The translations under genes were made by a program, and so were the position numbers. The notes below the pieces were generated by a model. That model had not been told where the DNA came from. It was given only the letters and a program-made list of their open reading frames with translations, and did not search any database. Shown here one piece after another: positions 3,945 through 46,518 of a stretch of DNA of 54,920 nt (positions are counted from its first letter, which is position 1; each line of letters begins with the position of its first letter). The DNA comes from a virus, in the IMG/VR virus record IMGVR_UViG_3300025410_000024, positions 1 through 54,920 of that record; one strand, 5' to 3'.

Positions 3945-4181
3945 ATGTTTTCATATAGTTACAGAACATCCCGTCCAGTTACTAGCAAATTGTTGGATAA
4001 CTTAGAAGAAGGCCTATACGATAAAGATCGTATGATCGCAGACTTGCTGGGCTGGATGAGCGAGCGAGATGTAGCAGAGTTTGCTCGTGCCAATGATTAC
4101 ATCGTAGCACAGGACGAAGACGAGTATGATGGTCAGCCTGATGAAGCCCAAGAGTGGGAGTCCTTTGACCCAGATTGCTAA
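3945..4181 (+). CDS. Hypothetical early protein, 78 aa
   Basis: The ATG at 3945 follows CAAAGGAGCGCACT. The basic N-terminus (SYRTSRPVTSK) leads to a helical core (LLGWMSERDVAEFARANDYI) and a strongly acidic C-terminus (DEDEYDGQPDEAQEWESFD). The acidic tail could mimic DNA or bind a basic host protein; that is only inference. No family is recognised. Confidence 0.8.
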   Translation: MFSYSYRTSRPVTSKLLDNLEEGLYDKDRMIADLLGWMSERDVAEFARANDYIVAQDEDEYDGQPDEAQEWESFDPDC

Positions 4182-4193
4182 TAACCCTAGAGG

Positions 4194-4222
4194 TTGACAG
4201 GGATTGCGGTCCCTGTTATAAT
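4194..4222 (+). promoter_or_regulatory. sigma-70 promoter with a perfect palindromic spacer
   Basis: TTGACA (4194-4199), 17 nt, TATAAT (4217-4222). ACAGGGA (4197-4203) and TCCCTGT (4210-4216) form a perfect dyad across the spacer. Confidence 0.9.
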
Positions 4223-4250
4223 ACATACTTAAACAACAAAGGAGCACACT

Positions 4251-4577
4251 ATGGATATTGAAACACTTCGCAGAGCAATTTTTAATGGTAACTGGTCCAA
4301 TGATGATCTTAACAGTATGGCGGATGCACTCAAGTGGGCCCGAGCAGACTTGACCAAGAGAACAAAGAGAACGTTGACTCTAGGCGACACCGTTAACTTC
4401 ACGTCTAGCAGAACCGGACGCAATGTCACCGGAATGGTTGTGAAGATCGCACAGAAGTATGTCACAGTCCGCACCATAGAGGGCTTGTGGAAAGTGCCAG
4501 CCAATATGCTCGAAAAGATTGAAGAGCCCAGTCCAATGGACGACTTCAACTATGTTGGAAGCAGACATCACTATTAA
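4251..4577 (+). CDS. Hypothetical early protein with SH3/KOW-like core, 108 aa
   Basis: The ATG at 4251 follows CAAAGGAGCACACT. The N-terminal 40 residues are helical and Trp-containing. Residues 43-90 look like a small beta barrel: TLGDTVNFTSSRTGRNVTG, then a strand ending in KYVTVRTIEGLWKVPANML. This is the pattern of SH3-like or KOW-like domains that contact nucleic acid or protein. I recognise similar proteins from T4-like phages only as conserved hypotheticals. Confidence 0.8.
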   Translation: MDIETLRRAIFNGNWSNDDLNSMADALKWARADLTKRTKRTLTLGDTVNFTSSRTGRNVTGMVVKIAQKYVTVRTIEGLWKVPANMLEKIEEPSPMDDFNYVGSRHHY

Positions 4578-4586
4578 CCCTACAGG

Positions 4587-4615
4587 TTGACAGGGCTTTG
4601 GGGCCCTGTTATAAT
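4587..4615 (+). promoter_or_regulatory. sigma-70 promoter with a perfect palindromic spacer
   Basis: TTGACA (4587-4592), 17 nt, TATAAT (4610-4615). ACAGGGC (4590-4596) and GCCCTGT (4603-4609) form a perfect dyad whose arms differ from those of the promoter at 4194 but keep the symmetry. Confidence 0.9.
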
Positions 4616-4645
4616 ACACTTACACAGACACAAAAGGAGCACACT

Positions 4646-4903
4646 ATGACATCAGCATTGACAGCGTATGTAGATCGTAAGAATGCTTTCGCAGACATTT
4701 TCGGACAACGGCAGTTGAGCCTACAGAGTGCCGAAGATAGGCAAAAGATTGCCAGTAGCATTGACGCAGACTTGAGCCCAGAGAACTTGACTTGCGATGG
4801 CGAACTGCCCCGCGCACAGGTTCAAGCTCGCTATAAGGCTCTGCGTGCGGCGGCCAGCCAACTACAAGCATTGGACCCATCAGTTAGTTTTTACGAATAT
4901 TAA
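4646..4903 (+). CDS. Hypothetical early protein, 85 aa
   Basis: The ATG at 4646 follows CAAAAGGAGCACACT. The protein is Ala- and Gln-rich and predicted almost entirely helical (residues 5-40 and 55-78, for example AQVQARYKALRAAASQLQAL). It heads a four-gene unit (4646-5837) with tight or overlapping junctions and no internal promoter. No family is recognised. Confidence 0.8.
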   Translation: MTSALTAYVDRKNAFADIFGQRQLSLQSAEDRQKIASSIDADLSPENLTCDGELPRAQVQARYKALRAAASQLQALDPSVSFYEY

Positions 4904-4914
4904 GGAGCAGACAA

Positions 4915-5133
4915 ATGGACGAAAAGGTTTATGAGCATGAGGTTATCACAACTGTACGAATTACAGTTCGTAGCCTAGATCCTATGCTGAACAAAGAGCG
5001 GTTCTTGGAGGACTACAACTATCTAACAGACTTCAGTGTCTTGTTAGGAGGCGAGGACTATCCTCGTGTGGTACAGACTTTTGTTATCAGCGATGAGATT
5101 GAATACATCGATCGGGAGATTCAAGATGCATGA
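4915..5133 (+). CDS. Hypothetical early protein, 72 aa
   Basis: The ATG at 4915 follows TAAGGAGCAGACAA, where the TAA is the stop of the preceding gene. Beta-type N-terminus (VITTVRITVRSLD), then a mixed acidic segment. It overlaps the next gene by 8 bases, which suggests coupled translation. No family is recognised. Confidence 0.75.
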   Translation: MDEKVYEHEVITTVRITVRSLDPMLNKERFLEDYNYLTDFSVLLGGEDYPRVVQTFVISDEIEYIDREIQDA

Positions 5134-5269
5134 TCTAATTGAACTAGCACTAAACCAGATAGTGCGAGATGTTGAAAATTGGGACTTGACTGCCATTGAA
5201 GAGCTTTTGAGATTTGTACCCGAAGAAAATTTGATTGCTTACTTACCTGAGGAGATTAGAAATGCCTAA
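5126..5269 (+). CDS. Hypothetical early protein, 47 aa
   Basis: A very short ORF that starts with ATGCATGATC inside the end of the previous gene and itself overlaps the next start (AATGCCTAA). The peptide is helical and acidic: IELALNQIVRDVENWDLTAI, then EELLRFVPEENLIAYLPEE. The LL-x-x-(V/L)P-x-x-x-L-x-x-YLP-x-E pattern recurs in small phage proteins of unknown role. Confidence 0.7.
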   Translation: MHDLIELALNQIVRDVENWDLTAIEELLRFVPEENLIAYLPEEIRNA

Positions 5270-5837
5270 CTGGTGCAACAACACACTCGAGATTACACAC
5301 AGTGATCCTGCCATGATTGAACGTGCTAGGTCAGCCTTTGCTGACGGCAGACTGTTGGATGAGTTCCACCCAGTGCCCAATGACCTGAAGATCGTGGCAG
5401 GCCGTGTGGGCGCCGACGATGATCAAGCACAGAAGGATCTTGTGGCACAGGAACAGGCCAACCGAGCCAAATACGGTTATGCCAATTGGTATGACTGGTG
5501 TGTCAACGAATGGGGCACCAAGTGGGACGTTGGTGGCAACGGCTACGAAGCACAAGATATACCTAATGGGTTAATCATGACCTTCGACAGTGCCTGGGCT
5601 CCGCCCGTCCGTGCTATGGAACAACTTGTAGATTTAGGCTTTGATGTTCGTTTGATGTATTACGAACCCGGCATGGCCTTTTGCGGTGTATGGGAAAACA
5701 ACGATGACGACTACTATGAAATTGGTGGTATGAGTTCGAGTGCTATTGCGGCTATGTTGCCTGCAGAATTAGACGAAGCATTTGGTATCAGCGAGCAGGT
5801 TGCTGAGTATGAAGCGGAGGAGGCCCAAGATGAGTGA
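5262..5837 (+). CDS. Api92/YubB-like ferredoxin-fold protein, 191 aa
   Basis: The ATG at 5262 sits 5-6 bases after GAGGAGATTAG. The N-terminus MPNWCNNTLEIT is a hallmark of the DUF1281 / Api92-like (YubB) family found on phages and plasmids. The middle segment (WYDWCVNEWGTKWDVGG) and the C-terminal FDSAWAPPVRAMEQL also match that family. These proteins are ferredoxin-like in fold and their function is not established. The last 20 residues are very acidic. It is the last gene of the 4646-5837 unit. Confidence 0.85.
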   Translation: MPNWCNNTLEITHSDPAMIERARSAFADGRLLDEFHPVPNDLKIVAGRVGADDDQAQKDLVAQEQANRAKYGYANWYDWCVNEWGTKWDVGGNGYEAQDIPNGLIMTFDSAWAPPVRAMEQLVDLGFDVRLMYYEPGMAFCGVWENNDDDYYEIGGMSSSAIAAMLPAELDEAFGISEQVAEYEAEEAQDE

Positions 5838-5874
5838 TGCTATTCAATGGATGGTTGACCAATTGACGAAATGA
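5830..5874 (+). CDS. Possible 14-aa micro-ORF
   Basis: An ATG at 5830 lies 6 bases after the strong Shine-Dalgarno GGAGGAGG, overlaps the stop of the preceding gene, and encodes MSDAIQWMVDQLTK before TGA. It covers the -35 region of the next promoter. It could be a coupling peptide or a remnant, and is supported only by the ribosome-binding site. Confidence 0.25.
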   Translation: MSDAIQWMVDQLTK

Positions 5875-5883
5875 TTGTATAAT
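5855..5883 (+). promoter_or_regulatory. sigma-70 promoter
   Basis: TTGACC (5855-5860), 17 nt, TATAAT (5878-5883). The leader is short and contains TTTTTAGGAGG. Confidence 0.85.
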
Positions 5884-5903
5884 ACATTTTTAGGAGGACA
5901 CAA

Positions 5904-6116
5904 ATGGCTACAGTAAAAAATTGGGACACAGACGAAGAGGTAGTAGTTCGAGTCGGCGACTGGGTCGGCTTTAAGTGCGATGTCGAGCAAAGCGGGGAAA
6001 TTATTCGCATCGAGGGCAATAGACTGTACTTGAGATCTGGTGTTATGGGCTTCCAGGGCGGGTATATTGGGGGACAAACGGAAACAGTTGAGAGAGCTGA
6101 CGACTGTTGGATTTAA
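5904..6116 (+). CDS. Hypothetical small beta protein, 70 aa
   Basis: The ATG at 5904 follows AGGAGGACACAA. The sequence looks like a small SH3-type barrel: EEVVVRVGDWVGFKCDV, then GEIIRIEGNRLYLRSG, ending in GGQTETVERADDCW. Such folds often bind RNA, DNA or a partner protein, but no family is recognised. Confidence 0.75.
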   Translation: MATVKNWDTDEEVVVRVGDWVGFKCDVEQSGEIIRIEGNRLYLRSGVMGFQGGYIGGQTETVERADDCWI

Positions 6117-6125
6117 ACAACAAAG

Positions 6126-6150
6126 ACCCTGCAGGTTGACAGGGTATTGT
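6126..6150 (+). terminator. Hairpin with -35 in its loop
   Basis: ACCCTG (6126-6131) pairs with CAGGGT (6140-6145), 8-nt loop, followed by ATTGTTT. TTGACA (6136-6141) of the next promoter occupies the loop and the top of the 3' arm. Confidence 0.55.
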
Positions 6151-6164
6151 TTCGGTTGTATAAT
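6136..6164 (+). promoter_or_regulatory. sigma-70 promoter inside a hairpin
   Basis: TTGACA (6136-6141), 17 nt, TATAAT (6159-6164), fused with the hairpin 6126-6150. Confidence 0.9.
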
Positions 6165-6195
6165 TAAGGCTTACACACACTAAAAGGAGCAGGAT

Positions 6196-6441
6196 ATGGG
6201 AATGTGGACCACCGATAACCAGGACACTATGAGCGTTGTACTCAAAGCATTCAGCGATGCGTCCCGACGCAACTATGACAGCCACGCATTTGAAGCAGGT
6301 TACTTGCAGAGTGTTATTGTTTCAATCTTACCTGACTTGCCCAAACGCAAGCAGAATAGTTTGATCAACGAAATGATCAAAGCCGCTCAAAAGCAAGAGA
6401 AAGAAGTACTTGATAAAATACTTGACGGCGTTAAGGTTTGA
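6196..6441 (+). CDS. Hypothetical early protein, 81 aa
   Basis: The ATG at 6196 follows AAAAGGAGCAGGAT. The N-terminal segment is polar (MGMWTTDNQDTMSVVLKAF). Two helices follow, with a basic C-terminal helix (KRKQNSLINEMIKAAQKQEK). The gene carries the -35 box of the next promoter in its final codons. No family is recognised. Confidence 0.8.
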   Translation: MGMWTTDNQDTMSVVLKAFSDASRRNYDSHAFEAGYLQSVIVSILPDLPKRKQNSLINEMIKAAQKQEKEVLDKILDGVKV

Positions 6442-6450
6442 AGTTATAAT
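6422..6450 (+). promoter_or_regulatory. sigma-70 promoter overlapping a gene end
   Basis: TTGACG (6422-6427, within coding sequence), 17 nt, TATAAT (6445-6450). An A/C-rich leader with repeated ACAC follows. Confidence 0.8.
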
Positions 6451-6480
6451 TTAATTTTACACACACACTAGGAGCACACA

Positions 6481-6966
6481 ATGGGAACACGAAGCAGAAT
6501 CGGCGTAATGCACGGAGATGTCGTTAAATCAGTTTACTGTCATTGGGACGGTTATCTTGAATACAACGGCGAGCTCTTGCAAAAACACTACAACTCAGCC
6601 AAAGCCAACGAACTTGTATCGCTCGGCGACTTGAGCTCACTGCGCCCTGAGATCGGCGAGGAGCATGCCTTTAGTCACTTTGACACAGATATATCCAGCG
6701 ATGAATACGAGAAACAGTTTGGCGAGATGTGTACCTTTTACGGACGCGATAGAAAAGAAAGCAACACAGAATTCAAAACAGACACAACATTCGAAGCATT
6801 CTTTGATCGTTGCGTAGGTTGTTGCGCAGAATGGTACTACGTAATGAATGACGGTGTTTGGTATTGCGGTAACACATATGAAAGCGACTCACGCTTTTAC
6901 AAGAAGCTAGTTCCATTATCAGAAGCATTGGCCGAAGTGCCTGATATAATGGGAGTGCAGGTGTGA
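6481..6966 (+). CDS. Conserved phage hypothetical protein, 161 aa
   Basis: The ATG at 6481 follows CTAGGAGCACACA. The N-terminus MGTRSRIGVMHGDVVKSVY followed by CHWDGYLEYNGELL is one I know from many phages and plasmids as a conserved protein of unknown function. It is aromatic-rich, with a Cys cluster in CVGCCAEWYYVMNDG and a further Cys at YCGN (residues about 118-140) that might bind metal. It is soluble and acidic. Confidence 0.85.
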   Translation: MGTRSRIGVMHGDVVKSVYCHWDGYLEYNGELLQKHYNSAKANELVSLGDLSSLRPEIGEEHAFSHFDTDISSDEYEKQFGEMCTFYGRDRKESNTEFKTDTTFEAFFDRCVGCCAEWYYVMNDGVWYCGNTYESDSRFYKKLVPLSEALAEVPDIMGVQV

Positions 6967-7136
6967 CAGGTTATGCAAGCAAGAGGGCGGCGACCCTCTC
7001 CCGTATACCAACTGATGAGTTAAAACAACAATTGGTATCACTAACAGAAAGTCCTAGTCGTAGTACTTTCGATGAGGTTTGGATCAGTTTACTTGAACAA
7101 GAAATTTTTAAAAGGAAAGACAATGAGCAAGATTAA
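6963..7136 (+). CDS. Short GTG-start ORF, 57 aa
   Basis: A GTG at 6963, overlapping the stop of the preceding gene and lying 6-7 bases after GGGAG, opens a 57-codon frame. The product begins TGYASKRAATLSRIPTDELK and continues through VSLTESPSRSTFDEVW to a Lys/Arg-containing end, overlapping the next gene by 14 bases. The overlap at both ends and the amphipathic helical sequence argue that it is real. No family is recognised. Confidence 0.55.
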   Translation: MTGYASKRAATLSRIPTDELKQQLVSLTESPSRSTFDEVWISLLEQEIFKRKDNEQD

Positions 7137-7305
7137 AGATTTGGCATATGATATTGAACAATTGTACATCGAAGGTTATAGTCCTAAGAGTATTGCTTTG
7201 CAACTGGACTGTCCTTTGGAATTGATTTATGATTGGTTAGAGTCTAACAATGTTGCAGAAAACTCACAGGAGGAATTAAGCCCATTCGAAACAATCAATT
7301 CTTAA
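7123..7305 (+). CDS. Small helix-turn-helix protein, 60 aa
   Basis: The ATG at 7123 follows AAAAGGAAAGACA; a longer frame upstream has no ribosome-binding site. Residues 14-40 contain GYSPKSIALQLDCPLELIYD followed by WL, which fits a helix-turn-helix of the Hin/MarR-like 'x-x-SPxxIAxxLxxPxxxIxxWL' type. It is therefore a candidate small DNA-binding regulator of the early region. The C-terminus is acidic and disordered. Confidence 0.7.
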   Translation: MSKIKDLAYDIEQLYIEGYSPKSIALQLDCPLELIYDWLESNNVAENSQEELSPFETINS

Positions 7306-7317
7306 TTCAAAAAATGG

Positions 7318-7346
7318 TTGACAACTAACCCAAATAGTTGTATAAT
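7318..7346 (+). promoter_or_regulatory. sigma-70 promoter with a perfect palindromic spacer
   Basis: TTGACA (7318-7323), 17 nt, TATAAT (7341-7346). ACAACTA (7321-7327) and TAGTTGT (7335-7341) are a perfect 7-bp dyad across the spacer. Confidence 0.9.
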
Positions 7347-7403
7347 TAATGTATGTTCAAAATAAAGAACATATTTTTACACACACAGAAAAGGAAATTT
7401 AAA

Positions 7404-7814
7404 ATGTCTACAAAGTTATTTAAATGCGCAGGTGTTAGCAAACGTAATGGTGCTTTCAAAGCTCGTTTCGCAAGTGATATGACTCGTGTTAAGGTTCTTG
7501 CCAAAACTGGAAGTTCCGATATTGATCTCATTGAGTTGAAAGAGCCAATGACCAAGGAAGATGCTATTGCGTATCTATTGAAGATTAATTTCGATAATGG
7601 TAACGCTTTGATTCGCACTGCGCTTGAAGAAGGTCTTGAGAAGAGATTGCCATCTGCCAAAGCACCTAAGGCTACAAAGTCTAAGCCTAGCCTAGATGCG
7701 ATTGCGGCTCGTGGTAAGGTTGCAAAGTCAAAAGCAAAGTCTACTGCGGTCACACAGCCAGCAGACACTGAGTTGGATGACAAGCCATTTGGCTTTGAGA
7801 AAGAGGCAGTTTAA
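7404..7814 (+). CDS. Hypothetical protein with basic histone-like tail, 136 aa
   Basis: The ATG at 7404 follows AAAAGGAAATTTAAA; an in-frame ATG further upstream lies too close to the promoter and lacks a Shine-Dalgarno. Residues 1-85 form a mixed alpha/beta part. Residues 90-120 are a Lys/Ala-rich segment (SAKAPKATKSKPS and KVAKSKAKSTAV) like histone or nucleoid-protein tails. A nucleic-acid-binding role is likely but not shown. The leader is longer than in the other early genes (57 bases from the -10 to ATG). Confidence 0.75.
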   Translation: MSTKLFKCAGVSKRNGAFKARFASDMTRVKVLAKTGSSDIDLIELKEPMTKEDAIAYLLKINFDNGNALIRTALEEGLEKRLPSAKAPKATKSKPSLDAIAARGKVAKSKAKSTAVTQPADTELDDKPFGFEKEAV

Positions 7815-18428: not shown

Positions 18429-18989
18429 ATGAACAAGAAAAAGTACACAGGACATCTATTAGTTTCAAATCCTCTTAACCCTAGAGATGAATTAGAACAA
18501 AGCGTGATTTTAATAGTTACGCATACTGATCAACTAGGAATAGGATTACAAATAAATAACCCTCAAGAAGATCTAGATCTTGGAAAAATAAGCACAGGTA
18601 TGGGGCTTCCATTTTATTCAAAAGATCCTGTATATTACGGTGGTAATATGAATCAAAATAAAATTCACGTTATACACAGTCTAGATTGGCGCAGTCTTAG
18701 TACTGTACAGTTAACCAAAGATATTGGAATTACCAACGATATATCTATATTGAGTGCAATTAGTCAAGGTGAAGGCCCTGAGTTTTACAAAGCCTGTTCA
18801 GGATATTGGTTATGGGAAGAAGGTCGATTAGACATTCAACTAGATCCTAGAAATCATCTAGAGCACGAGCCACATAAATGGGAAATTGCTCCAGCGAATA
18901 TAAACAATGTATTCAAAATACATCCAGATGAACTTTGGGAAAGAAGCATTGAAGCTTCTGCCCGTTATCATACCAGCACCTGGCTTTAA
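18429..18989 (+). CDS. UPF0301 / AlgH-like protein, 186 aa
   Basis: The sequence aligns by eye with the AlgH (DUF179) family: N-terminal GHLLVSNPLNPRDELEQSVI, IGLQINNP, VYYGGNMNQNKIHVIHS, and GYWLWEEGRLDIQLD all match family landmarks (the family has LIA-P, GLVINKP, V-GGPV-LH, GYAGW-GQLE). The phage version lacks the usual GGP, having GGN. The cellular role of AlgH proteins is poorly known. The gene is a + strand island among - strand genes, driven by a late-type promoter, and its 3' end overlaps the helicase gene by 4 bases. Confidence 0.75.
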   Translation: MNKKKYTGHLLVSNPLNPRDELEQSVILIVTHTDQLGIGLQINNPQEDLDLGKISTGMGLPFYSKDPVYYGGNMNQNKIHVIHSLDWRSLSTVQLTKDIGITNDISILSAISQGEGPEFYKACSGYWLWEEGRLDIQLDPRNHLEHEPHKWEIAPANINNVFKIHPDELWERSIEASARYHTSTWL

Positions 18990-20449
18990 TCTTTTTCTGG
19001 ATTAATCTTTGTCAGCAAACTACGGATCAATGGAGCCGATCCTGAAGATTTACTTGCAATCTTGTTCACACTTACTCCCTGAGTTGGATCTACAATAACT
19101 CCATCATCATCTACAGATTCTGTGGTAGTTGATACTACGCTTGTTCTTTTAAATCCAGCATATGTATTACTGGTAGGAGTTGTTCTTCCGCCACCTTGAC
19201 TAAAACTAGTGCTATCTTCTCCATCTTCAGGATCTGTAATACGTAGTGTATCTACATTAAAATCTAATTCTACTTTTTGTCCAACACCACTACTAGAACG
19301 TGTTTTCATAAACTGAATTTGATAACGTCCACGTTCTTTCATGGCCCTGCTAGTAAAGATACCAATTACATTATCAGCAGTCATAATCTTCGATAACCCA
19401 CCCGAAATATGACTGTGATCAAATTCAATTTCTTCAACAGCACTACGATTCAATTGACTGGCCGTAACTGTAATACATTGTGTTTCCATAGCCAAATTAC
19501 GAATCTCTTCTGATACATATTTGTCTTTTACAAACAGATCACTAGGACTAACCTTCACACTTAAAGGCATCATCAAATCGAGGTAATCTATTAACAAAAC
19601 GTCTGGTTTTACGCCTTTTTTGACCTGATATTCCTTCAAATAGGCTCGAATATCGTTACAATTTTTACCTGAAGGCATATACTTCACTTGTAGATTTCCT
19701 GACTTTTTTCCAATCATTTTAACCTTAAGTTCTACATCCTCAATATTCTTAAAAATCTCACGAGTACCTATACCTGTGGTCATACTATCAAGACGCATAC
19801 TAACTAAACCCTCGCTCAACTCAAATGTTAGATATAATACGTTTAATCCTTGTAATGCCCAGTTAACTCCTAGATTAGCCAAGAACAAACTCTTACCACC
19901 ACCTGAGCCTGCACAAAAGATATTCAATTCTCCACGGTTAAATCCACCATACAGTTTCTTATCAATGCTAGGCCATCCTGTGCTAATTTGTCCATTTCCA
20001 TCTTTGAGCTTAGTAAGCCTTGCCTTAGGGTCTTCAAAATAATCTGTACCCATATCTTTGTTCAAACTAATTTGAATAGCATCTTTGATTAGTTTCTCTA
20101 CAGGGCCATAATCTCCTGATTCTAATAAATCACTGCTTTTAATAATTGCACGTTCGAGTCCTTTGTGTCTACTAAAATTTTCAAACTCATCCATTAACCA
20201 AGTATAGTTTTCTTTTGGTAATGATACTGTATTAAAGTTACTATGTACTGATGCATTAACGATTGCAGGCTCTGGCATCACTTTATATTCGTCAACATAT
20301 TTTGTAATGAACTCTGCAGAGTCTTGTAATTTTTGATCAAAGTTTAATGGATCAAAAATATTTTGACATCTTATAAATGTTTCTGCATCACTGAGAAACA
20401 TTTCAAGATATAATTTCTGCATATCATAATCATAATTTGGTTTATTCAT
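18986..20449 (-). CDS. gp41: Replicative DNA helicase (T4 gp41-like, DnaB family), 487 aa
   Basis: Length is close to T4 gp41 (475). Walker A is AGSGGGKS (residues 180-187), preceded by the DnaB-type segment STGWPSIDKKLYGGFNRGEL. Walker B lies in VLLIDYLDLM (about 285-295), and QLNRSAVE and ISGGLSKIMTAD correspond to motifs H3/H4. It unwinds DNA 5'-3' at the fork and binds the primase encoded just upstream (8-nt overlap), forming the primosome. The C-terminal 70 residues are Ser/Thr-rich and probably disordered. Confidence 0.95.
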   Translation of the reverse strand: MNKPNYDYDMQKLYLEMFLSDAETFIRCQNIFDPLNFDQKLQDSAEFITKYVDEYKVMPEPAIVNASVHSNFNTVSLPKENYTWLMDEFENFSRHKGLERAIIKSSDLLESGDYGPVEKLIKDAIQISLNKDMGTDYFEDPKARLTKLKDGNGQISTGWPSIDKKLYGGFNRGELNIFCAGSGGGKSLFLANLGVNWALQGLNVLYLTFELSEGLVSMRLDSMTTGIGTREIFKNIEDVELKVKMIGKKSGNLQVKYMPSGKNCNDIRAYLKEYQVKKGVKPDVLLIDYLDLMMPLSVKVSPSDLFVKDKYVSEEIRNLAMETQCITVTASQLNRSAVEEIEFDHSHISGGLSKIMTADNVIGIFTSRAMKERGRYQIQFMKTRSSSGVGQKVELDFNVDTLRITDPEDGEDSTSFSQGGGRTTPTSNTYAGFKRTSVVSTTTESVDDDGVIVDPTQGVSVNKIASKSSGSAPLIRSLLTKINPEKD

Positions 20450-21449
20450 TGCTCATTCCTTCTAATTTTTTCTTGAGTAGATTTATTTTTATCTCTCCCG
20501 ATACCTTGTAATGCAGAATTGTGGTTAATACATATAGGCGCCCATATTTTTTCATTGCATCAGAAACATCTTTAACATCATCGCCCCAAGGTGGTAAACT
20601 AGCCGACCAATTATTAGCAATCGCGGCTTTGAGTAATTTAGCTCCGGGTTTGTCTCTATCTGGTACTACAATAACTTCTCTACCTAATGCGTTCAATCTT
20701 GTAATCTGAGTTTCATTTGGTTCATTATGCATAATTGCACATCCGTCTACTGCTATTGCGTCAAACTGCCCTTCAACTACAATAACATATTTTCTATCAA
20801 CAGTTTGACGATCAATATTGAATACATATCCAGGTTGTGCATCTGTAAGATACTTTGGTTTACCATCTGTGATTTTTCGACCAGTGTATCCAACTATTTT
20901 ACCTTCGTTGTAAAAAGGAATCAATATTCTATCTATATATCCTGGAGAAGGACTCCAAAAGAAATTATCCTTTATAGGATCAAATCCTCTATCTAATATA
21001 TATTGATATATGTCAACTAGTTTAGATGCATACTCTTCTGGTAAATCCGAATTAGCCCATTCTGTTAAAGTTAATGTACCGTCTGGCAATGCTACTTCTT
21101 TAAGTTCAAACGTTAATGTTTTTTTGACAACAGGTTGATCATCTTTGATCTTTAGTGCTACTAAATTTAATTTACCAATGTCGGATTCATTAACTCCGAT
21201 CCATTTGAATAAATTTTTGGTATTTTTACTTAATAATTTTCCTGGACTCCACCCTGCCTTGAATCCACAATTAAAACAATGATATTGGAAACTACCATCG
21301 TGCCCTGTTAATACTCCACCGCGCTTTCGAGTATCTTTTGCCTCTCCATTATTATGACAACAGACTGCATCGAAGCTAATCCATCCGCTAGGAGTTGCTT
21401 TTCGTTTCGCCGGCAGTAACACCATTAGAGTTGTCTGTATCTCGTTCAT
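20442..21449 (-). CDS. gp61: DNA primase (T4 gp61-like), 335 aa
   Basis: An N-terminal zinc ribbon is visible (VCCHNNG at 29-35 and YHCFNCGFKAG at 56-66). The TOPRIM core has VVEGQFDAIAVDG (about 222-234) and VVPDRDKPGA (about 262-271). Length matches T4 gp61 (342). It makes RNA primers for lagging-strand synthesis together with the helicase. The start ATG at 21449 lies 62 bases inside the 3' end of the glycosyltransferase gene. Confidence 0.95.
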   Translation of the reverse strand: MNEIQTTLMVLLPAKRKATPSGWISFDAVCCHNNGEAKDTRKRGGVLTGHDGSFQYHCFNCGFKAGWSPGKLLSKNTKNLFKWIGVNESDIGKLNLVALKIKDDQPVVKKTLTFELKEVALPDGTLTLTEWANSDLPEEYASKLVDIYQYILDRGFDPIKDNFFWSPSPGYIDRILIPFYNEGKIVGYTGRKITDGKPKYLTDAQPGYVFNIDRQTVDRKYVIVVEGQFDAIAVDGCAIMHNEPNETQITRLNALGREVIVVPDRDKPGAKLLKAAIANNWSASLPPWGDDVKDVSDAMKKYGRLYVLTTILHYKVSGEIKINLLKKKLEGMSNE

Positions 21450-22275: not shown

Positions 22276-23394
22276 TTAACTTCTATACAATACTTTGTCA
22301 AATGATCCGTAGTACGTTGGATCGTCATTGTTGCCAGATGCAGGAGCAGTTCCTGGAATATACATTACTCGAATGTAGGTAAACAAGCCATTGAAATTTA
22401 TATAATCAATACCATTGAACCTGTTATAATTTAAAGTTGCTACGGTTGCATACTTTCCAAAGTCTGATGCATTATTTGATAAAGTTGCTTGAATGTATAC
22501 AGTTCCAATATAGTTGGTCATATACATTGCTAATGTATGTAATGCTGTGTTACTTTTAAATTCTGGATAAGCATAAAACGGACCACTTTTATGTTCGTAC
22601 AAATATGTATCTTGATTATAACTTTTTAAGAAGCTAACTATTTCTTGACTAGGTTTTAATCGAGGATATACTTCTTCAGTAAGATGCACGGTTCCTGAAA
22701 TTCCGTAATATGTATTTGCATAAGCAGGCAAATATGTATTATCATTTGGATCTTGATATACTACACTATATGTATATTCTCCGCGCTCGAGATTAACAGT
22801 ATCACTTTCTGTGAATGTAAGTTCACCTAATCCTTTTAATCCTATTGTGTTGATTACAACTCCTGTACTTGTAGATACAGGTTTTAATGTATAATTGTTC
22901 AAAGTAACAATATTAGTGATGGGTGAAAAAACAGTAGATGTTGTTATTGAAGATGTAGTAACTGTGGTAACAATTGTAGCAATTGATCCTGTACCTATAC
23001 TTAAGATAGTGGAGTTGGCAGCAATACCATATCCAAAGACCGCTTGGCCTACTGATATATTAGAAACATCGTCGAACGTTAGCACCTGGCTAATACTACC
23101 TTGATTAGCATTAACATTTAAGTATATAGAATCATCTAATACTGTAAGTTCTTTTTGTAACACTAACTCTTGACTTGTATTATCAAACATATTGAATACA
23201 AAAGTTTGTGTATTGCTAATTGGTAATAATTTTTGATCACTGTTTTTAAACTGGATCCTTATCTTGTTTTTAATACCTTTTTGTATTTTTAAATCTCGTT
23301 GGTACATAACTCGGTTAATCCCTAAAACAGTTTCGTCCAAATCTAATATCACGTCGAGTGTATTTGGATATAAATAGATTGGTAAATTTTGCAT
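22276..23394 (-). CDS. Putative virion structural (baseplate/fibre) protein, 372 aa
   Basis: The N-terminal 100 residues (VMYQRDLKIQKGIKNKIRIQ, then FKNSDQKLLPISNTQTFVFN) resemble the conserved start of baseplate-upper or fibre-associated proteins of T4-like phages. The middle is Thr/Ser/Val-rich (TTVTTSSITTSTV), typical of extended beta structure. The C-terminal 120 residues contain aromatic beta strands. It is expressed from a late promoter (GATAAATA, then 5 bases, then ATG). The exact role is not known. Confidence 0.6.
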   Translation of the reverse strand: MQNLPIYLYPNTLDVILDLDETVLGINRVMYQRDLKIQKGIKNKIRIQFKNSDQKLLPISNTQTFVFNMFDNTSQELVLQKELTVLDDSIYLNVNANQGSISQVLTFDDVSNISVGQAVFGYGIAANSTILSIGTGSIATIVTTVTTSSITTSTVFSPITNIVTLNNYTLKPVSTSTGVVINTIGLKGLGELTFTESDTVNLERGEYTYSVVYQDPNDNTYLPAYANTYYGISGTVHLTEEVYPRLKPSQEIVSFLKSYNQDTYLYEHKSGPFYAYPEFKSNTALHTLAMYMTNYIGTVYIQATLSNNASDFGKYATVATLNYNRFNGIDYINFNGLFTYIRVMYIPGTAPASGNNDDPTYYGSFDKVLYRS

Positions 23395-23414: not shown

Positions 23415-23798
23415 ATGTCCGTTAACAGTAGTTTTCAAAATAATTATCCGTTTGTTTCGTGTATTAAATCCAACGACATTGAGTATGTTGGAATTATCAT
23501 TAATTTTGACAACTACATAGCAAGTATATACGATATTTCTGTTATTAAAACAGACGACGAAAAACGTGTATTCTTAGAACTAGGTGAGATATGGTGGTGG
23601 GAATCAAATCGTAAAATACCAATAAACATATTTCTTAAAAAAGAAATGCAGTTTTTTAGATATTCTATAAAAACATTCAACAGCAAAGATGTTGAGCTTA
23701 TTTTTGGACCAAGTGTTAATTTAAGCGAAATAGCTGAAAAACGCATAAAACGCAAATCAATTCAGTTGGTCAGAACTCCTAAGAATCCTCGTAGCTGA
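23415..23798 (+). CDS. Conserved hypothetical protein, 127 aa
   Basis: A + strand island gene. The pattern GEIWWWESNRKIPINIFLKK and FGPSVNLSEIAEKRIKRKSI is one I know from T4-like cyanophage relatives, without a function. Aromatic-rich middle, basic C-terminus. Its 3' end overlaps the convergent mini-DnaE gene by 20 bases. Confidence 0.75.
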   Translation: MSVNSSFQNNYPFVSCIKSNDIEYVGIIINFDNYIASIYDISVIKTDDEKRVFLELGEIWWWESNRKIPINIFLKKEMQFFRYSIKTFNSKDVELIFGPSVNLSEIAEKRIKRKSIQLVRTPKNPRS

Positions 23799-24348
23799 TA
23801 CCTTCGCAGATAAGATTCATCTGAACCACAATTGCCATCGCATATGCAATTGCGTGAGCTTTCTTAAAGTAATAATCTTCGTTGTCTGGTTTTATCCAAA
23901 CTTCGTTTATTACCGTACTCCAATCTTTTCCAATTAAGGAACGTTTTGCAGGACGTATCATTGCTAATACCGCCGCAAGTTGTTCCACAGTTCGTGGCTT
24001 CATTTCTCGTAAAATTGATCCGTAACCATTTACGTGAAACAACAAATTTGTAAAGTCATCTTGTTCTAATAAGTCCCATAGTGGTTCTTGCGACATCAAT
24101 TGTAATAAATGTTCTTCGTTTTTAATACCTTGATAGATGGTAACGTTAAGAAAATCTATCTTGAAGTATCCTCTATCTTCAGCAGATTTATAATCAATAC
24201 TTGCTAATCCTGTTAATGGATTAACTGGAATTTTGTGGCAGTAAGCACCTGTATTATGTTTTTTGATTCCGTCAATGGTTGCAGGAACGTGTTCAATTAC
24301 ATTAAGTAATTTGTTTCTGTCAGCAAAATCAATATCAATATCCGGCAT
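23779..24348 (-). CDS. Miniature DnaE-like protein (Pol III alpha remnant), 189 aa
   Basis: The protein strings together landmarks of bacterial DnaE in the correct order, with the long linkers deleted. PDIDIDF (residues 2-8) equals the catalytic PDxDxDF. HNTGAYCHKIPVNPLTGLAS (31-50) matches the HAAGVVI-P segment. GYFKIDFL (60-67) matches KFDFLGL, with the third catalytic Asp at 65. REMKPRTVEQLAAVLAMIRP (114-133) matches the fingers segment KRLxPxxFEDxIALxALxRP. FKKAHAIAYA (161-170) matches FNKSHSAAYA. Full DnaE has over 1100 residues. The PHP domain, the GRGSxAGSL palm part and the tau/beta-binding tail are absent. It overlaps the heptose kinase gene by 14 bases. Function unknown; an accessory role at the fork or decoy for host clamp loader is conceivable. 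Confidence 0.7.
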   Translation of the reverse strand: MPDIDIDFADRNKLLNVIEHVPATIDGIKKHNTGAYCHKIPVNPLTGLASIDYKSAEDRGYFKIDFLNVTIYQGIKNEEHLLQLMSQEPLWDLLEQDDFTNLLFHVNGYGSILREMKPRTVEQLAAVLAMIRPAKRSLIGKDWSTVINEVWIKPDNEDYYFKKAHAIAYAMAIVVQMNLICEGISYEDS

Positions 24349-25108
24349 TTTTTATTTCGTTGTATGTTGGTGCATAATTACCGCGATGCTGAACTGTGAT
24401 GCCTGCGGCTATGTTAGCAAATATTATAGCTTTTTCTATATCTTTTGTATATAGGTATTGGACAGTTAAGGCAGCTAAAAATGTATCTCCTGCTCCGCAT
24501 ACATCAGTGACTTCGACTTTTTTGGTTGAATAAAGTGTGCCATTATACATTGCACCATCTCCACCTTTTGTAACAATTAACCTATTAGGCAAACTGGTAG
24601 CAGTACGATATTCTAAATCATTAATTTTAACGTAGGCGTTGTCAAATCTTTTAAGATCTGTTTTCTTTGTATCTATAAACACAGGACATTTAGAATTTTG
24701 AATAATATGTTTGATGTGTTCATAACTTAAAAAACCTTTGTTGTAATCTGAAATTATAATGGCGTTATAGGAATCAATAGGAAATGTAGTTTGCTCATTC
24801 CAAGATGCAATAGATGGTTCGTTATCTACTCTTAATAAATGTTGGCCTGATCGTTGATCTATATATCTAGTTTTTGTAATATTTTCAGTATTAGTAATAA
24901 AATTTGCATTAATATTTAAATTTATAAGATTAAGATTGACATTTGCGGCCATTCCTAACACATCATAACTGTTGACAATTTTAATAACAGGAACAGGAGC
25001 CTCTGGACTTAATCTATCCACAGTTCCTATTTTATATTCATCAGTACAACTATCCCCGATTAATAATACGTTGAATGATATCTGTTGTTGAATGTCCCGT
25101 ATGCTCAT
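24335..25108 (-). CDS. hldA: Heptose-7-phosphate kinase-like (HldE N-domain), 257 aa
   Basis: A PfkB-type sugar kinase close to the N-domain of HldE: NVLLIGDSCTDEYKIGTVDR, then RLSPEAPVPVIKI match the RISPEAPVPV landmark; LGMAANVNLNL replaces GGAANVA. VTDVCGAGDTFLAAL is the PfkB catalytic signature with the base Asp. It should phosphorylate D-glycero-beta-D-manno-heptose 7-phosphate at C1 in ADP-heptose synthesis. The first 59 bases overlap the nucleotidyltransferase gene. It is slightly short (HldE N-domain is about 315 aa). Confidence 0.8.
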   Translation of the reverse strand: MSIRDIQQQISFNVLLIGDSCTDEYKIGTVDRLSPEAPVPVIKIVNSYDVLGMAANVNLNLINLNINANFITNTENITKTRYIDQRSGQHLLRVDNEPSIASWNEQTTFPIDSYNAIIISDYNKGFLSYEHIKHIIQNSKCPVFIDTKKTDLKRFDNAYVKINDLEYRTATSLPNRLIVTKGGDGAMYNGTLYSTKKVEVTDVCGAGDTFLAALTVQYLYTKDIEKAIIFANIAAGITVQHRGNYAPTYNEIKNAGY

Positions 25109-25445
25109 AAAATTTTATCTCTTTACAATATTGTGAACCTATAATAGGCTTGTTTCTATAATCAGCACCTTTGACCATAATGTCTGGTTCATATGATTTT
25201 ATAAGGTCAATTAATTCTTCATCATTGCCAAAAAAATAAACTGTGTCTACAAATTTTAAACTTTCTAATATATAACTTCTATCATATTGATCATTGATTG
25301 GTCTATAGATTCCTTTAAGTTCTTTTACTCTACTATCAGTATCTATTGCTACCAACAAATGGTCCCCAAGACTTTTTGCATACTGCAACATCTGTAGGTG
25401 TCCTCTATGCAATAGATCAAATGTACCATTTACAAAAATTTTCAT
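25050..25445 (-). CDS. hldC: Heptose-1-phosphate nucleotidyltransferase-like (HldE C-domain), 131 aa
   Basis: GTFDLLHRGHLQML (residues 7-20) carries the HxGH-type motif of cytidylyltransferase-fold enzymes. YEHTGHSTTDIIQRI at the C-terminus matches the G(Y/H)STT-x-II-x-RI end of the HldE C-domain. The product would be the NDP-activated heptose (ADP-heptose in known pathways). Four-base overlap with hldD upstream and 59-base overlap with the kinase downstream: in bacteria the two HldE domains are usually fused, here they are separate and in reversed order. Confidence 0.8.
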   Translation of the reverse strand: MKIFVNGTFDLLHRGHLQMLQYAKSLGDHLLVAIDTDSRVKELKGIYRPINDQYDRSYILESLKFVDTVYFFGNDEELIDLIKSYEPDIMVKGADYRNKPIIGSQYCKEIKFYEHTGHSTTDIIQRIINRG

Positions 25446-26236
25446 TCGTAATATTTTTTTAATTCTGTTAAATCTGCACAGGTGTATTTTTGATATTGAT
25501 CTTTAATATTAACGGGCATCGGAACATATTCTATATCTGCTGGATATTTTTTAATTATTTCTTTGGCTACTTGTAAAAATGATTTAGGATCTCCTGTGCC
25601 AACATTCCAGATACTTGATTGATCAACATTTAAAAATTTCAAATGTACATCAACTACTGTACGAACAGGAACAAAATCTCTTAGATATAAATTGCTACCT
25701 TCAAATAATTTAATTTTTCCAGTTGTTTGAGCCTGATACTGAAATTTATAATATGGGCTTGCTTGGTCGCCTTTATGCTCTTCTCCTTCTGGTCCATACA
25801 CATTAAAATATCTAAATCCTTGAATATGTCTATTAATAGACTTTGCATATTCTTTGCGTGTTTGAACAAATCTTTCAAACATATATTTGCTCCACGCATA
25901 TGGACTTTTAGGATCTACAGGAGCATCTTCTCTGAAACTACTTGTTAACCCATAAACACTGGCACTACTTGAATATTGAAAATTTACACCATTACTTAAT
26001 GCACTATCTAATAAATTACAACTAAAATCATAATTTTGACGCATTACTTTATCAACATCTTTTTCTGTTGTACTACTAATTGCACCAATATGAATGACCC
26101 AATCGAGTCCAACTGTGGATAGATTATTGTCAGAATCTCCCCACTCGTATGTGGTTATATTATGTCCATCTGATTGTAAAGCTCTATATAGATGTCCTCC
26201 TATAAATCCTTTATGACCAGTTAACAAAATTTTCAT
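25442..26236 (-). CDS. hldD: ADP-heptose 6-epimerase-like (HldD), 264 aa
   Basis: An extended SDR: GHKGFIGGHL (7-16) is the NAD(P)-binding GxxGxxG. SSSASVYG supplies the catalytic Ser, and YAWSKYMFE the YxxxK pair. GFRYFNVYGPEGEEHKGDQAS is the signature of HldD, and LYLRDFVPVRTVVDVHL and WNVGTGDPKSFLQVA also match. HldD converts ADP-D-glycero- to ADP-L-glycero-D-manno-heptose. It is shorter than host HldD (about 310 aa). It is the second gene of the coupled cupin-hldD-hldC-hldA group. Confidence 0.85.
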   Translation of the reverse strand: MKILLTGHKGFIGGHLYRALQSDGHNITTYEWGDSDNNLSTVGLDWVIHIGAISSTTEKDVDKVMRQNYDFSCNLLDSALSNGVNFQYSSSASVYGLTSSFREDAPVDPKSPYAWSKYMFERFVQTRKEYAKSINRHIQGFRYFNVYGPEGEEHKGDQASPYYKFQYQAQTTGKIKLFEGSNLYLRDFVPVRTVVDVHLKFLNVDQSSIWNVGTGDPKSFLQVAKEIIKKYPADIEYVPMPVNIKDQYQKYTCADLTELKKYYE

Positions 26237-26592
26237 TTTTGACTATCGCCTTTCATCACACGATAATTATCTTCAACACTGTCAGGAGTGCTAACTTCGA
26301 TAATTGTACCTTCTTCGATGCAAATTATTTGATGAGGTAATAATGGAGGATTATGCCATACATCGCCGGCATTTAAATCTTGTTCATACTGACTAGCGTT
26401 GGCAGTATTGATACAGATAACTTTAAATTTGCCCGAAAGTACATACCAACTCTCGTCTTTCTCTGAATGAAAATGCATACTGAATCTTGCACCTTCGTTG
26501 AACCGCAATAGTTTACCGCAGTATTTGTCATTGGTAGCCCAGATTAATTCTGATCCCCATCCTTTTTCTACATATCCTGATAACTTAGTCAT
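26233..26592 (-). CDS. Cupin, mannose-6-phosphate-isomerase type, 119 aa
   Basis: A single cupin: KGWGSELIWATNDKYCGKLL is the KPWGxE start typical of PMI/GMP-type cupins. FSMHFHSEKDESWYVLSGKF holds the metal-binding HxH...E, and HNPPLLPHQI provides the last His. It may isomerise or sense a sugar phosphate feeding the heptose genes, with which it overlaps by four bases. The true substrate is unknown. Confidence 0.75.
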   Translation of the reverse strand: MTKLSGYVEKGWGSELIWATNDKYCGKLLRFNEGARFSMHFHSEKDESWYVLSGKFKVICINTANASQYEQDLNAGDVWHNPPLLPHQIICIEEGTIIEVSTPDSVEDNYRVMKGDSQK

Positions 26593-26601
26593 AATATCCT
26601 T

Positions 26602-27306
26602 TTACTTGATTTCTACTTCTCGAATAATTTCTTTTACCAATGCAACGTCTGCAGGTACTTCTTTAAATCGTTTCATCCAGAAAGGAACATCAAATGCCGG
26701 AGCAATCATATCTAATTGCTCGTCGCTCATTTTATTAATCATTGATTGTCCCATAGTACTGTTTAATATAACCCAGGGACTGACACGACCATTTAAAATA
26801 TCGTGCACGGCTTTATTTAAACTAACATAGTTGAAGTAATGATTAAATTCTGCGTTGTGATCATCTGCCCATTCCATCATTGTCTGAATACTACGCTGTA
26901 CTGCTGACTCAACTGGTTCTTGTTTAATCATATCATATAGATATGTTTCATATAACTCATCTCTACACCAGTGATCTAATTTTACTCCGCTCTTAATCAC
27001 AAACTCAACAAATTTTTCTGGATACAACGGATTAACATTATTAAGAAAACTACCAAATTTTACAAAGGCATTATAGTAAGCAGTATCACAAAATTCTTTG
27101 TATGTCTTAGGCTTCTTATGGCCACTTAGATACCAAAATCTATTAAAGGCCATAAATCCTGCCTGGACACGTTTTTCGTTTTCTTGTAACGCTCTTCTTT
27201 TCTTTTCACACATATGAGCAACAAGAGTTTTTTCGTGCATAAAACTCTTACCGCAATGTAAACATTGATTAGGTTGTTCCACTAGTGTTATCACTGGTTT
27301 ATCCAA
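26602..27306 (-). CDS. Zinc-finger protein, hypothetical, 234 aa
   Basis: Residues 14-33 are a C2H2-type finger (CLHCGKSFMHEKTLVAHMC). The rest is helical, with FMAFNRFWYLSGHKKPKT and CRDELYETYLYDMIKQEPVE. The start appears to be TTG at 27306; a GTG five codons later is possible. I know proteins of this kind in cyanophage-like phages as hypotheticals, often near replication genes. A DNA- or RNA-binding regulator is plausible. Confidence 0.7.
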   Translation of the reverse strand: MDKPVITLVEQPNQCLHCGKSFMHEKTLVAHMCEKKRRALQENEKRVQAGFMAFNRFWYLSGHKKPKTYKEFCDTAYYNAFVKFGSFLNNVNPLYPEKFVEFVIKSGVKLDHWCRDELYETYLYDMIKQEPVESAVQRSIQTMMEWADDHNAEFNHYFNYVSLNKAVHDILNGRVSPWVILNSTMGQSMINKMSDEQLDMIAPAFDVPFWMKRFKEVPADVALVKEIIREVEIK

Positions 27307-43493: not shown

Positions 43494-46400
43494 AGGCGTT
43501 AGTTCCAGGAAAACCAGCACCTAAGTTTCCACTTGCAATAGCACCGGTGTTAAGTATACGCAATGGAATATAAATGAATTCAACTGCTTTAACTGGTTCA
43601 ATAGCAATGTCTAACCATAGCTCTGAACGGTCTATTCTAGCTGGAGTATTATTACTTGTATCACATACAACAATAAAGTCGTAAAGAGCTCGTTGACCTA
43701 CTAATTCAATCAATAGGCTTTCGGCAGCGGCTTTAATTTCTCTACGTGTTTGTGCGTCATTTGGTTCAAACAAGAATGGTTTAGATAATATACCTAACTG
43801 TCTACGTAAGTACGCAATTAAACGTGCAACATTAATACGATCTAATGCAGATGCTCCATTAGAACGAGTGTATTGACCAAAGTTAACAATGCCAACTCCA
43901 GGAATTGTAGCAATAGGATTAATTTCTACGCTGTGTAAAGTATCTCTCAATCCTTCATAAATTGCTGTAGTTTTAAATGATCCTGTGCTATCAATATAAC
44001 CTACCGAAGTTGCATTATCAACAGTACCACGACGTGTACCAGCTGGAGCAAACCATTGATATGATTTAGCATCACTGTTTACAATTGTGCGTAGCATCAT
44101 ATGACTTGGAGGAACAACAATGTTATTTCCTTTGTTGTCAGTTGTATAACCACTTGGGTAGAACATAGACATATAATTGTCATAAGTTACTGCACCATCT
44201 TCACCGTTATCAAGCGCATTGGCAGTATTCTTACCCCAGTTGTACAATGTTGTTGCAGTTGGTGCTAATCTAAACGGAGTATCACCTACAACAAATGCTG
44301 TTTGACCTCTGTCTGTATTCAAAGCAACCATATTAGCAATGGTTTCCGTGTAACCAGGTGTTGCTATTAGATTATAAACTAATGTATCAGTATCACGGAT
44401 ATCTGTATTGGTATCAATTGTTGCTTTCATACGAGATACAATATAACCACGTTGTGCTAAACGACCAAATGTACCAACATTGTTATTATCATTAGGACTT
44501 ACTGTTACCCAACGATCTGTATTATAACCAGACATTGGATCATTTTCATACATAATATTTTCGCCATTATTAGCAAGAATATTGATATAACCTGCTACAT
44601 ATTTCTTAATGTTAAATCCAGAGCGACGTAAATTCCATAAGCGTGTACCTCTTGGATACAATGCTGGATCAACAACATCTGGGTCTACATAATTGCTAAC
44701 CAATAGATCAGCAATAGGAGTTACTGTTTCCATACTGTCTGCGCCTGCTGAGCTCCAACGAGCATCTGCAAATACCCATCCTGTAGGACTTGTATGATCT
44801 TCAACATCTTGTAGATCCCAGGTTAATGTAGAACCATTCCATATGTAAACATCTTTACCATAACGATCTATATCAGCTGTACTAACCCAAATATCGCCAT
44901 CCATTAAGTCTGTGCCATCACTTTGTGTCATAGGTGCAGTTGCACCAACAATAGGACCATTAGGATCTGTGTCAGGGAAAGCATTTAAATACCCAGTCCA
45001 TTGTGAACCATTGTGATACATAATGTCTACACTGCTTAAATTTGTATCATACCATAATGTATCATTGGCTGGTAATGTATATGGAGTTGTTGGCAATGCT
45101 TCGTACACTAATGGTTTCCAGTTTGTAGCAATAAACCCGTAACCATCTGATGCAGGTGCATTGTATAAGTTTGCTGTACCAGTCTTAGAAGACATATCGT
45201 AAGCAGTAAATCCTGCACTACTTAAAGGAGTGTTATCAAAGTCTGTAATTTCAATATCACCACCTAATGCGTGTGTTAATGTTACACGATTAGTTACTGC
45301 ATTAAATGAAGCAGTTACATTGATTAAACCCGATGTATTAACAGCCTGGGCCAACAATTGACCAACATAAGTTGATGTTGTACCTTGCCAGCTAATTGAC
45401 ATAGAGTCACTCCAGCTAGATGATTCGGCTAGTGTTTCTCTAATTGTAAATGAAGTTGTACCAGATGTATAGTTTGTAGAAGCCGCACTTGTAATTGTTG
45501 TAGGACTTGTTGCATTTCTGCGCCATACACGGAATTCTGCAACAGGAGTATCTTCGTTGATACCATAATGATCAGGATCTGTTTCTACAAAAATAGTACC
45601 TGTAGCAATGTTTTTACCACCACCTACTGAATCTAATTTTGATATAGCTTGTACTGTACTATTATATAAAGGAGCACTTACTGTTCCCCAGGTCTGTGTA
45701 GAACCATTATAATATTTTACAACCCAGTTCGAACCGTAACCGGGACTTGTTGTTTTGATCCAAACACTACCAGTTGTTGCTGTAGTTCCAGCAGATGTAA
45801 AATCTGGATATTGTGTGTGAGGAGAAACAACTACTTGTTTACCACCGTCAAATGTTTGACCAACTTCGGTCCAAGCGTTTGAAGATGCAGTTGTTTTATA
45901 CCATACTGCATTTGGATAGTTAGTGAAGTTATCTGAAGTAACAACTACAGCATAATCGCCTTGCTGACCAAATGAGTCAACTGGCACACCATCCATTAAC
46001 TCTGTAGCAGAATTGCTATCATCGATAATTAATGGAGTCTTAACTGTAAATGTATTTGTTCCGCTATTCCATTCGTTAATACCGAATAAACTAGATTTTG
46101 TATCTATCCAATAAGTACCAGACATAGGTGCCCCAGTTGGAACACTTGTGCTTCCTTTTAATGAACCTAGATCAACATCTGCACGAACTACATATGCACT
46201 CGAGCTTGCACCTAGCAAACTATAAGCGGCTTGTAAACCGTACTCGTTTAGTTCATTACCATGAAGTGGATTACCATTTGTATCGGTATAAAATAACGGT
46301 GTACCGAATGTATCGGTTAAGTCTCTCTGACTTGTTATTAACCAAACTTTTCCAGTATTGGCAGCAATCGTTCCTTGTGCTGTTCCTGTACCAGAAGCAT

Positions 46401-46518
46401 TTTCTTTATCTTGTGCTGTTGCAACGAATATAATCGGTGTACTTGATGGTGCGGCTGGAGTATAAAAACTCTCGTCGATAACGCTTACTTGTACGCCTGG
46501 TGAACCTAATGTGGCCAT
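43492..46518 (-). CDS. gp18: Tail sheath protein (gp18-like), 1008 aa with large insertion
   Basis: The N-terminus (ATLGSPGVQVSVIDESFYTP) and the C-terminal 350 residues (AGYINILANNGENIMYENDP, EPNDAQTRREIKAAAESLLI, VKAVEFIYIPLRI) are typical sheath. Between residues about 125 and 600 lies an insertion of several Trp/Asp/Gly repeats (YYNGSTQTW, MYHNGSQWTGYL, YIWNGSTLTW, preceded by 'GDIWV' or 'TLWYDT'). T4 gp18 has 659 aa. The insertion probably forms surface domains on the sheath. Contraction of this polymer drives the tube through the envelope. ATG after AAGGAGATTGACAA; late promoter at 46549-46556. Confidence 0.95.
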   Translation of the reverse strand: MATLGSPGVQVSVIDESFYTPAAPSSTPIIFVATAQDKENASGTGTAQGTIAANTGKVWLITSQRDLTDTFGTPLFYTDTNGNPLHGNELNEYGLQAAYSLLGASSSAYVVRADVDLGSLKGSTSVPTGAPMSGTYWIDTKSSLFGINEWNSGTNTFTVKTPLIIDDSNSATELMDGVPVDSFGQQGDYAVVVTSDNFTNYPNAVWYKTTASSNAWTEVGQTFDGGKQVVVSPHTQYPDFTSAGTTATTGSVWIKTTSPGYGSNWVVKYYNGSTQTWGTVSAPLYNSTVQAISKLDSVGGGKNIATGTIFVETDPDHYGINEDTPVAEFRVWRRNATSPTTITSAASTNYTSGTTSFTIRETLAESSSWSDSMSISWQGTTSTYVGQLLAQAVNTSGLINVTASFNAVTNRVTLTHALGGDIEITDFDNTPLSSAGFTAYDMSSKTGTANLYNAPASDGYGFIATNWKPLVYEALPTTPYTLPANDTLWYDTNLSSVDIMYHNGSQWTGYLNAFPDTDPNGPIVGATAPMTQSDGTDLMDGDIWVSTADIDRYGKDVYIWNGSTLTWDLQDVEDHTSPTGWVFADARWSSAGADSMETVTPIADLLVSNYVDPDVVDPALYPRGTRLWNLRRSGFNIKKYVAGYINILANNGENIMYENDPMSGYNTDRWVTVSPNDNNNVGTFGRLAQRGYIVSRMKATIDTNTDIRDTDTLVYNLIATPGYTETIANMVALNTDRGQTAFVVGDTPFRLAPTATTLYNWGKNTANALDNGEDGAVTYDNYMSMFYPSGYTTDNKGNNIVVPPSHMMLRTIVNSDAKSYQWFAPAGTRRGTVDNATSVGYIDSTGSFKTTAIYEGLRDTLHSVEINPIATIPGVGIVNFGQYTRSNGASALDRINVARLIAYLRRQLGILSKPFLFEPNDAQTRREIKAAAESLLIELVGQRALYDFIVVCDTSNNTPARIDRSELWLDIAIEPVKAVEFIYIPLRILNTGAIASGNLGAGFPGTNA

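Follow-up and report, generated by a model that had tools for sequence, protein, structure and literature searches.

The window, by which we mean the whole stretch of 54,920 nucleotides that we analyzed (positions 1 to 54,920 of the IMG/VR virus record IMGVR_UViG_3300025410_000024), carries on its minus strand an intact ORF of 189 codons at positions 23779-24348. It has an ATG start and begins MPDIDIDF, and the plus strand across the same positions is not open, being full of stops. The gene and its surroundings are laid out as follows:

18986-20449, minus strand: DnaB-like replicative helicase, conserved neighbour (phrog_19, 1.6e-70; 55/56 loci, some duplicating one another)
20442-21449, minus strand: DNA primase, conserved neighbour (phrog_47, 4.9e-37; 55/56 loci, some duplicating one another)
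22276-23394, minus strand: virion structural protein of 372 aa, conserved neighbour
23415-23798, plus strand: 127-aa ORF of unknown function (phrog_11637), convergent with the polymerase gene and sharing 20 nt with its 3′ end; conserved neighbour
23779-24348, minus strand: 189-aa protein, putative C-terminal half (the Mg2+- and template-binding part) of a split minimal Pol III alpha (phrog_11778, 3e-64)
24335-26592, minus strand: sugar cassette inserted upstream (PfkB kinase, cytidylyltransferase, NAD-dependent epimerase, cupin)
26602-27306, minus strand: phrog_11058 protein of 234 aa, unknown, the usual immediate upstream neighbour where the sugar cassette is absent

When the 189-residue protein was compared with the PHROGs, it matched PHROG 11778, annotated as DNA polymerase, with an E-value of 3e-64, and also, at 1e-8, phrog_405, the family of full-length phage Pol III. 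Its sole match in Pfam was PF17657 (fingers), below the cut-off. Of the 50,697 phage records searched with tblastn, 90 contain a homologue, which in 88 of them covers at least 80% of the protein; these records include Asteriusvirus 121Q, Mimasvirus GAP32, Wroclawvirus PA5oct, Atu_ph07, Phosso, SCTP-2 and Vibrio phage 2.275.O, and at least 548 related stretches with a homologue are present in IMG/VR. The hosts of these phages span from Agrobacterium to Escherichia, with the same core kept throughout. The median dN/dS of the gene was 0.12 (range 0.04-0.21 in 111 close pairs), and it is thus under purifying selection. Moreover, its mean identity among five phages was 48.6%, next to 47.7% for the family B polymerase, 40.8% for the helicase and 36.4% for the primase. 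The gene is real, old and widespread.

The first-pass annotation had recognized five landmarks of the Pol III alpha subunit, in order, in this protein, and all of them are indeed present:

24325-24345, minus strand: PDIDIDF, residues 2-8; D3 and D5 correspond to D401 and D403 of E. coli DnaE (invariant in 89/89)
24226-24258, minus strand: H31xxG34...P41, counterpart of the H(A/S)AG region of DnaE just before the third Asp (89/89)
24148-24162, minus strand: KIDFL, residues 63-67; D65 corresponds to D555 of DnaE (K63 and D65 in 89/89)
23950-24003, minus strand: MKPRTVEQLAAVLAMIRP, residues 116-133, first retained fingers block, about 620-641 in DnaE (PF17657 below the cut-off)
23839-23868, minus strand: FKKAHAIAYA, residues 161-170, second retained fingers block, 753-767 in DnaE (H165 and Y169 in 89/89)

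The check proposed for Asp 3, Asp 5 and Asp 65 gave a uniform answer, as the three residues are kept in all 89 distinct homologous ORFs; D7, H31, G34, P41, K63, R132, P133, K135, H165 and Y169 are equally invariant in this set. A profile built from 54 homologues matched E. coli DnaE collinearly over four stretches (399-419, 530-559, 597-641 and 753-767), each of which is weak alone while jointly they fall in order. The structure predicted with AF2 (pLDDT 85) had only Pol III alpha or PolC entries at ranks 1-12 of its PDB matches, seven of them at a probability of at least 0.99. These matches include 4iqj, 2hpi, 3e0d, 7pu7 and 2hnh, with a best E-value of 2.3e-3 at probability 1.00. The TM-scores are modest (0.34-0.47), as expected of half a domain. 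Judged by its sequence and its modelled fold, the protein is homologous to DNA polymerase III alpha, so the kinship with DnaE and with the Pol III palm proposed at the outset holds, and neither of the two outcomes that would have spoken against it was seen.

The inventory of missing parts needed an amendment. The window protein does lack the PHP, thumb, HHH/OB and clamp-binding regions of canonical DnaE and PolC, tail included, and its fingers are reduced, all much as first described. No part is more telling by its absence than the beginning of the palm, which that description left out: the profile aligns to nothing before DnaE residue 399, and hence the palm segment with GRGS (DnaE 361-364) is not there. 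GRGS, the triphosphate-binding motif that is a canonical feature of family C, is carried instead by a partner protein encoded elsewhere in these genomes. In profile searches, a second small ORF in each of the eight complete phages matched PF07733 and positions 360-437 of phrog_405. Its product is about 175 aa long, and its C-terminal end reads ...WGVGRGSSVASYVLYLIGVH...EFLK, followed by the stop. The partner profile aligns to residues 321-392 of E. coli DnaE and the C-terminal half begins at 399, which puts the two proteins end to end, short of six residues at the junction. The G-x-GRGS motif was invariant in 86 of 86 partner ORFs, and the predicted partner structure (pLDDT 91) likewise had only Pol III alpha or PolC at ranks 1-16 in the PDB. 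In RefSeq, both pieces are separately named DNA polymerase in 121Q and Atu_ph07. The neighbours of the partner gene in these two phages are a GroES-like chaperonin or head-morphogenesis gene and a gp44-like clamp loader. We did not find the partner within the window, a 55-kb fragment; it is present in a 270-kb relative contig whose C-terminal half is 76% identical to that of the window. Where the first-pass annotation had considered one self-contained condensed polymerase, we therefore find a C-terminal half, with the GRGS-bearing N-terminal half as a separate gene in the relatives. This second gene also largely explains what had seemed odd, namely that the catalytic residues are kept although the fold is cut to a sixth.

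Both halves were present, always on the same strand and always together with a family B polymerase (PF00136), in the 17 large or complete relatives examined. These comprise all eight complete phages, all seven contigs of 228-462 kb (the 270-kb one among them) and two phages found from the partner side, Stenotrophomonas phage CM1 (319 kb) and Alishewanella phage Slicko01. By record coordinates, the distance between the halves runs from about 11 kb to roughly 280 kb. In the retrieved loci they were never fused or within 10 kb of each other, and no C-terminal half turned up in the 80 partner loci, which were searched with flanks of up to 10 kb. Smaller contigs with one half are fragments and offer no argument against pairing. 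A whole-length Pol III profile run on 15 genomes (the eight complete phages and the seven contigs) found no convincing further pieces, be it PHP, thumb or tail, beyond the two halves, and no family A polymerase scored above the cut-off in the eight complete phages. The co-occurrence is within one phage lineage and is partly a matter of common descent. The 310-codon frame of L139, considered as a fusion of the halves, was ruled out, as it is merely an N-terminal extension of the open frame. Slicko01 (OQ508956.1, L223/L226), with both halves and a family B polymerase in 141 kb, lies well under the 200-kb threshold for jumbo phages.

The conserved context of the C-terminal half is replication, as the primase and the DnaB helicase show. 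The convergent phrog_11637 ORF was kept in all 89 loci with at least 1 kb of downstream sequence, some loci duplicating one another. This ORF (about 120 aa, opposite strand) usually has a 3′ end that overlaps or closely abuts that of the polymerase half. The first-pass annotation had placed the gene last in a heptose operon, which proved to be a local accident: a heptose kinase adjoins the polymerase half in only 12 of the 96 loci with enough upstream sequence, again counting some duplicates, and the sugar cassette is a local insertion that is not part of the polymerase system. A sugar-nucleotide role, suggested from those same genes, finds no footing either, given a fold that is that of Pol III and a linkage of 12/96 set against 55/56 for primase and helicase. 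The cassette sits between phrog_11058 and the polymerase half, and its transferase resembles heptose-1-phosphate adenylyltransferase. The phrog_11058 protein has a weak match to a C2H2 zinc finger (PF12756), below the cut-off.

Iyer et al. (2021; PMC7824862) have already described, by sequence analysis, a split minimal Pol III alpha in the "group 2.2" jumbo phages, and they modelled the ancestral replicase of bacteria on it. The system of the window does not differ in kind from theirs, the window protein being a stand-alone C-terminal protein with the metal-binding Asp residues and the template-binding part. What our analysis adds to that study is a new environmental phage lineage, hundreds of homologues, the conserved neighbours and one 141-kb phage that is not jumbo. 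Earlier, the 172-aa N-terminal half had been noticed as "truncated" in the paper on phage CBB (PMC5259590), and gp316 is listed in the paper on Atu_ph07 (PMC6102473). Our literature search found no experimental follow-up or activity for any member of the group. The members of PHROG 11778 (for example 121Q gp16, GAP32_282 and Atu_ph07 gp74) belong to the same family as the window protein, with 40-51% identity and the same neighbours; the window protein starts directly at MPDIDIDF, whereas in several of these relatives it is preceded by a few additional residues, up to about 15. Compared with E. coli Pol III alpha (DnaE, 1160 aa), the collinear motifs, the three catalytic Asp and the fold are shared, but the phage enzyme is split, with its palm spread over two genes and its fingers reduced, and it is without PHP, thumb, OB and tail.

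Our analysis establishes the homology and complementarity of the halves, their co-occurrence, selection and residue conservation, whereas their binding to each other, their catalysis and their biological role are what we infer. In the reading that we consider probable, the C-terminal half and its separate partner would form, noncovalently, a split minimal family C core that serves as an accessory beside the family B replicase. The window protein would contribute the three Asp that bind metal as well as the two fingers motifs that remain, while the partner of about 175 aa, ending WGVGRGSS...EFLK, would supply the preceding palm helices and the GRGS that grips the nucleotide triphosphate. The two would join with the breakpoint at a palm loop, giving a single two-metal nucleotidyltransferase site. 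Such an enzyme should be distributive, since thumb, PHP domain, OB fold and clamp-binding tail are all lacking. It would most likely work beside the phage family B replicase, with tasks such as extending primers, filling gaps or bypassing lesions close to the primase and helicase. A bolder version, which we offer as a tentative and rather doubtful possibility, would make the pair a dedicated second polymerase of the replisome, that is, a working thumbless family C enzyme, put together from two separately made halves, that would extend primers in the manner of Pol alpha or fill gaps at a step between the primase-helicase and the family B replicase.

The position of the break has a parallel in Tenacibaculum phage Larrie (L219, ON950054.1, positions 4146-7726), which encodes a Pol III alpha of full architecture, with PHP, fingers and HHH, in two adjacent ORFs. 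The break falls between positions 98 and 100 of PF07733, the same palm loop at which the split mini form is broken. Larrie differs from the mini form in that its ORFs are adjacent and retain the PHP, the whole fingers and the HHH domains; a search for a family B polymerase in this phage found none. By analogy, this independent split suggests that the palm loop tolerates a chain break. The Larrie break gave no match to Pfam inteins; its first Pol III ORF bears a C-terminal tail of about 55 residues that is possibly a degenerate intein piece.

A thumbless polymerase is unusual, and this is a point against reading the pair as an active enzyme. The absence of the thumb and of most DNA-holding parts, in phages that already own a full family B polymerase, would also be in keeping with a polymerase-derived subunit that is structural or regulatory instead of catalytic, such as a scaffold on the primase-helicase or on the family B polymerase. 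Nevertheless, the metal- and triphosphate-binding residues are all invariant across very divergent phages and a scaffold would not need them, and we regard such a subunit as unlikely. The first-pass annotation had also entertained a structural relic with a new role; an inactive relic is unlikely too. The assembled pair might be a template-independent nucleotidyltransferase, either similar to terminal transferase or a modifier of a nucleotide or a protein. A family X-like palm is common to many non-template transferases (Pol beta superfamily), and a catalytic palm retained after the loss of the thumb and much of the fingers would suit this role. The fingers blocks that remain are, however, those common to template-dependent Pol III, and the genes are located among replication genes, which makes this function improbable in our judgement.

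Two explanations remain. As a decoy, the window protein would bind the host clamp loader or replisome and block host replication, which agrees only with its kinship to host DnaE. In DnaE, the clamp and tau are bound by parts of the C-terminal region; this region is absent here, conservation is centred on the catalytic residues, and the same core is kept although the hosts range from Agrobacterium to Escherichia, so that we find the decoy very hard to credit. The presence of the three catalytic Asp could be taken to mean that the 189 residues are a mini-polymerase in themselves. We give this almost no credence, because the protein lacks the initial, GRGS-bearing segment of the palm, and in every large genome examined another gene encodes that segment.

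Should the two halves be active as one enzyme, family C would have in it a polymerase core of remarkably small size, and this would be natural evidence that the palm of the bacterial replicase can come from two chains. Biochemistry on the pair would allow direct tests of the ancestral-replicase model and of what a second polymerase does in T4-like jumbo phages. To a kind of system that was already known, the window contributes reach, through hundreds of environmental homologues and a 141-kb phage, and constraint.

Finally, the rest of the window encodes UvsX, a gp32-like SSB, a UvsW-like helicase, a terminase and a tail sheath, as expected for a T4-related jumbo lineage. The tail sheath, of 1008 aa, occupies positions 43495-46518, and a separate protein of 475 aa at positions 50372-51796 matches tail sheath or sheath stabilizer families.
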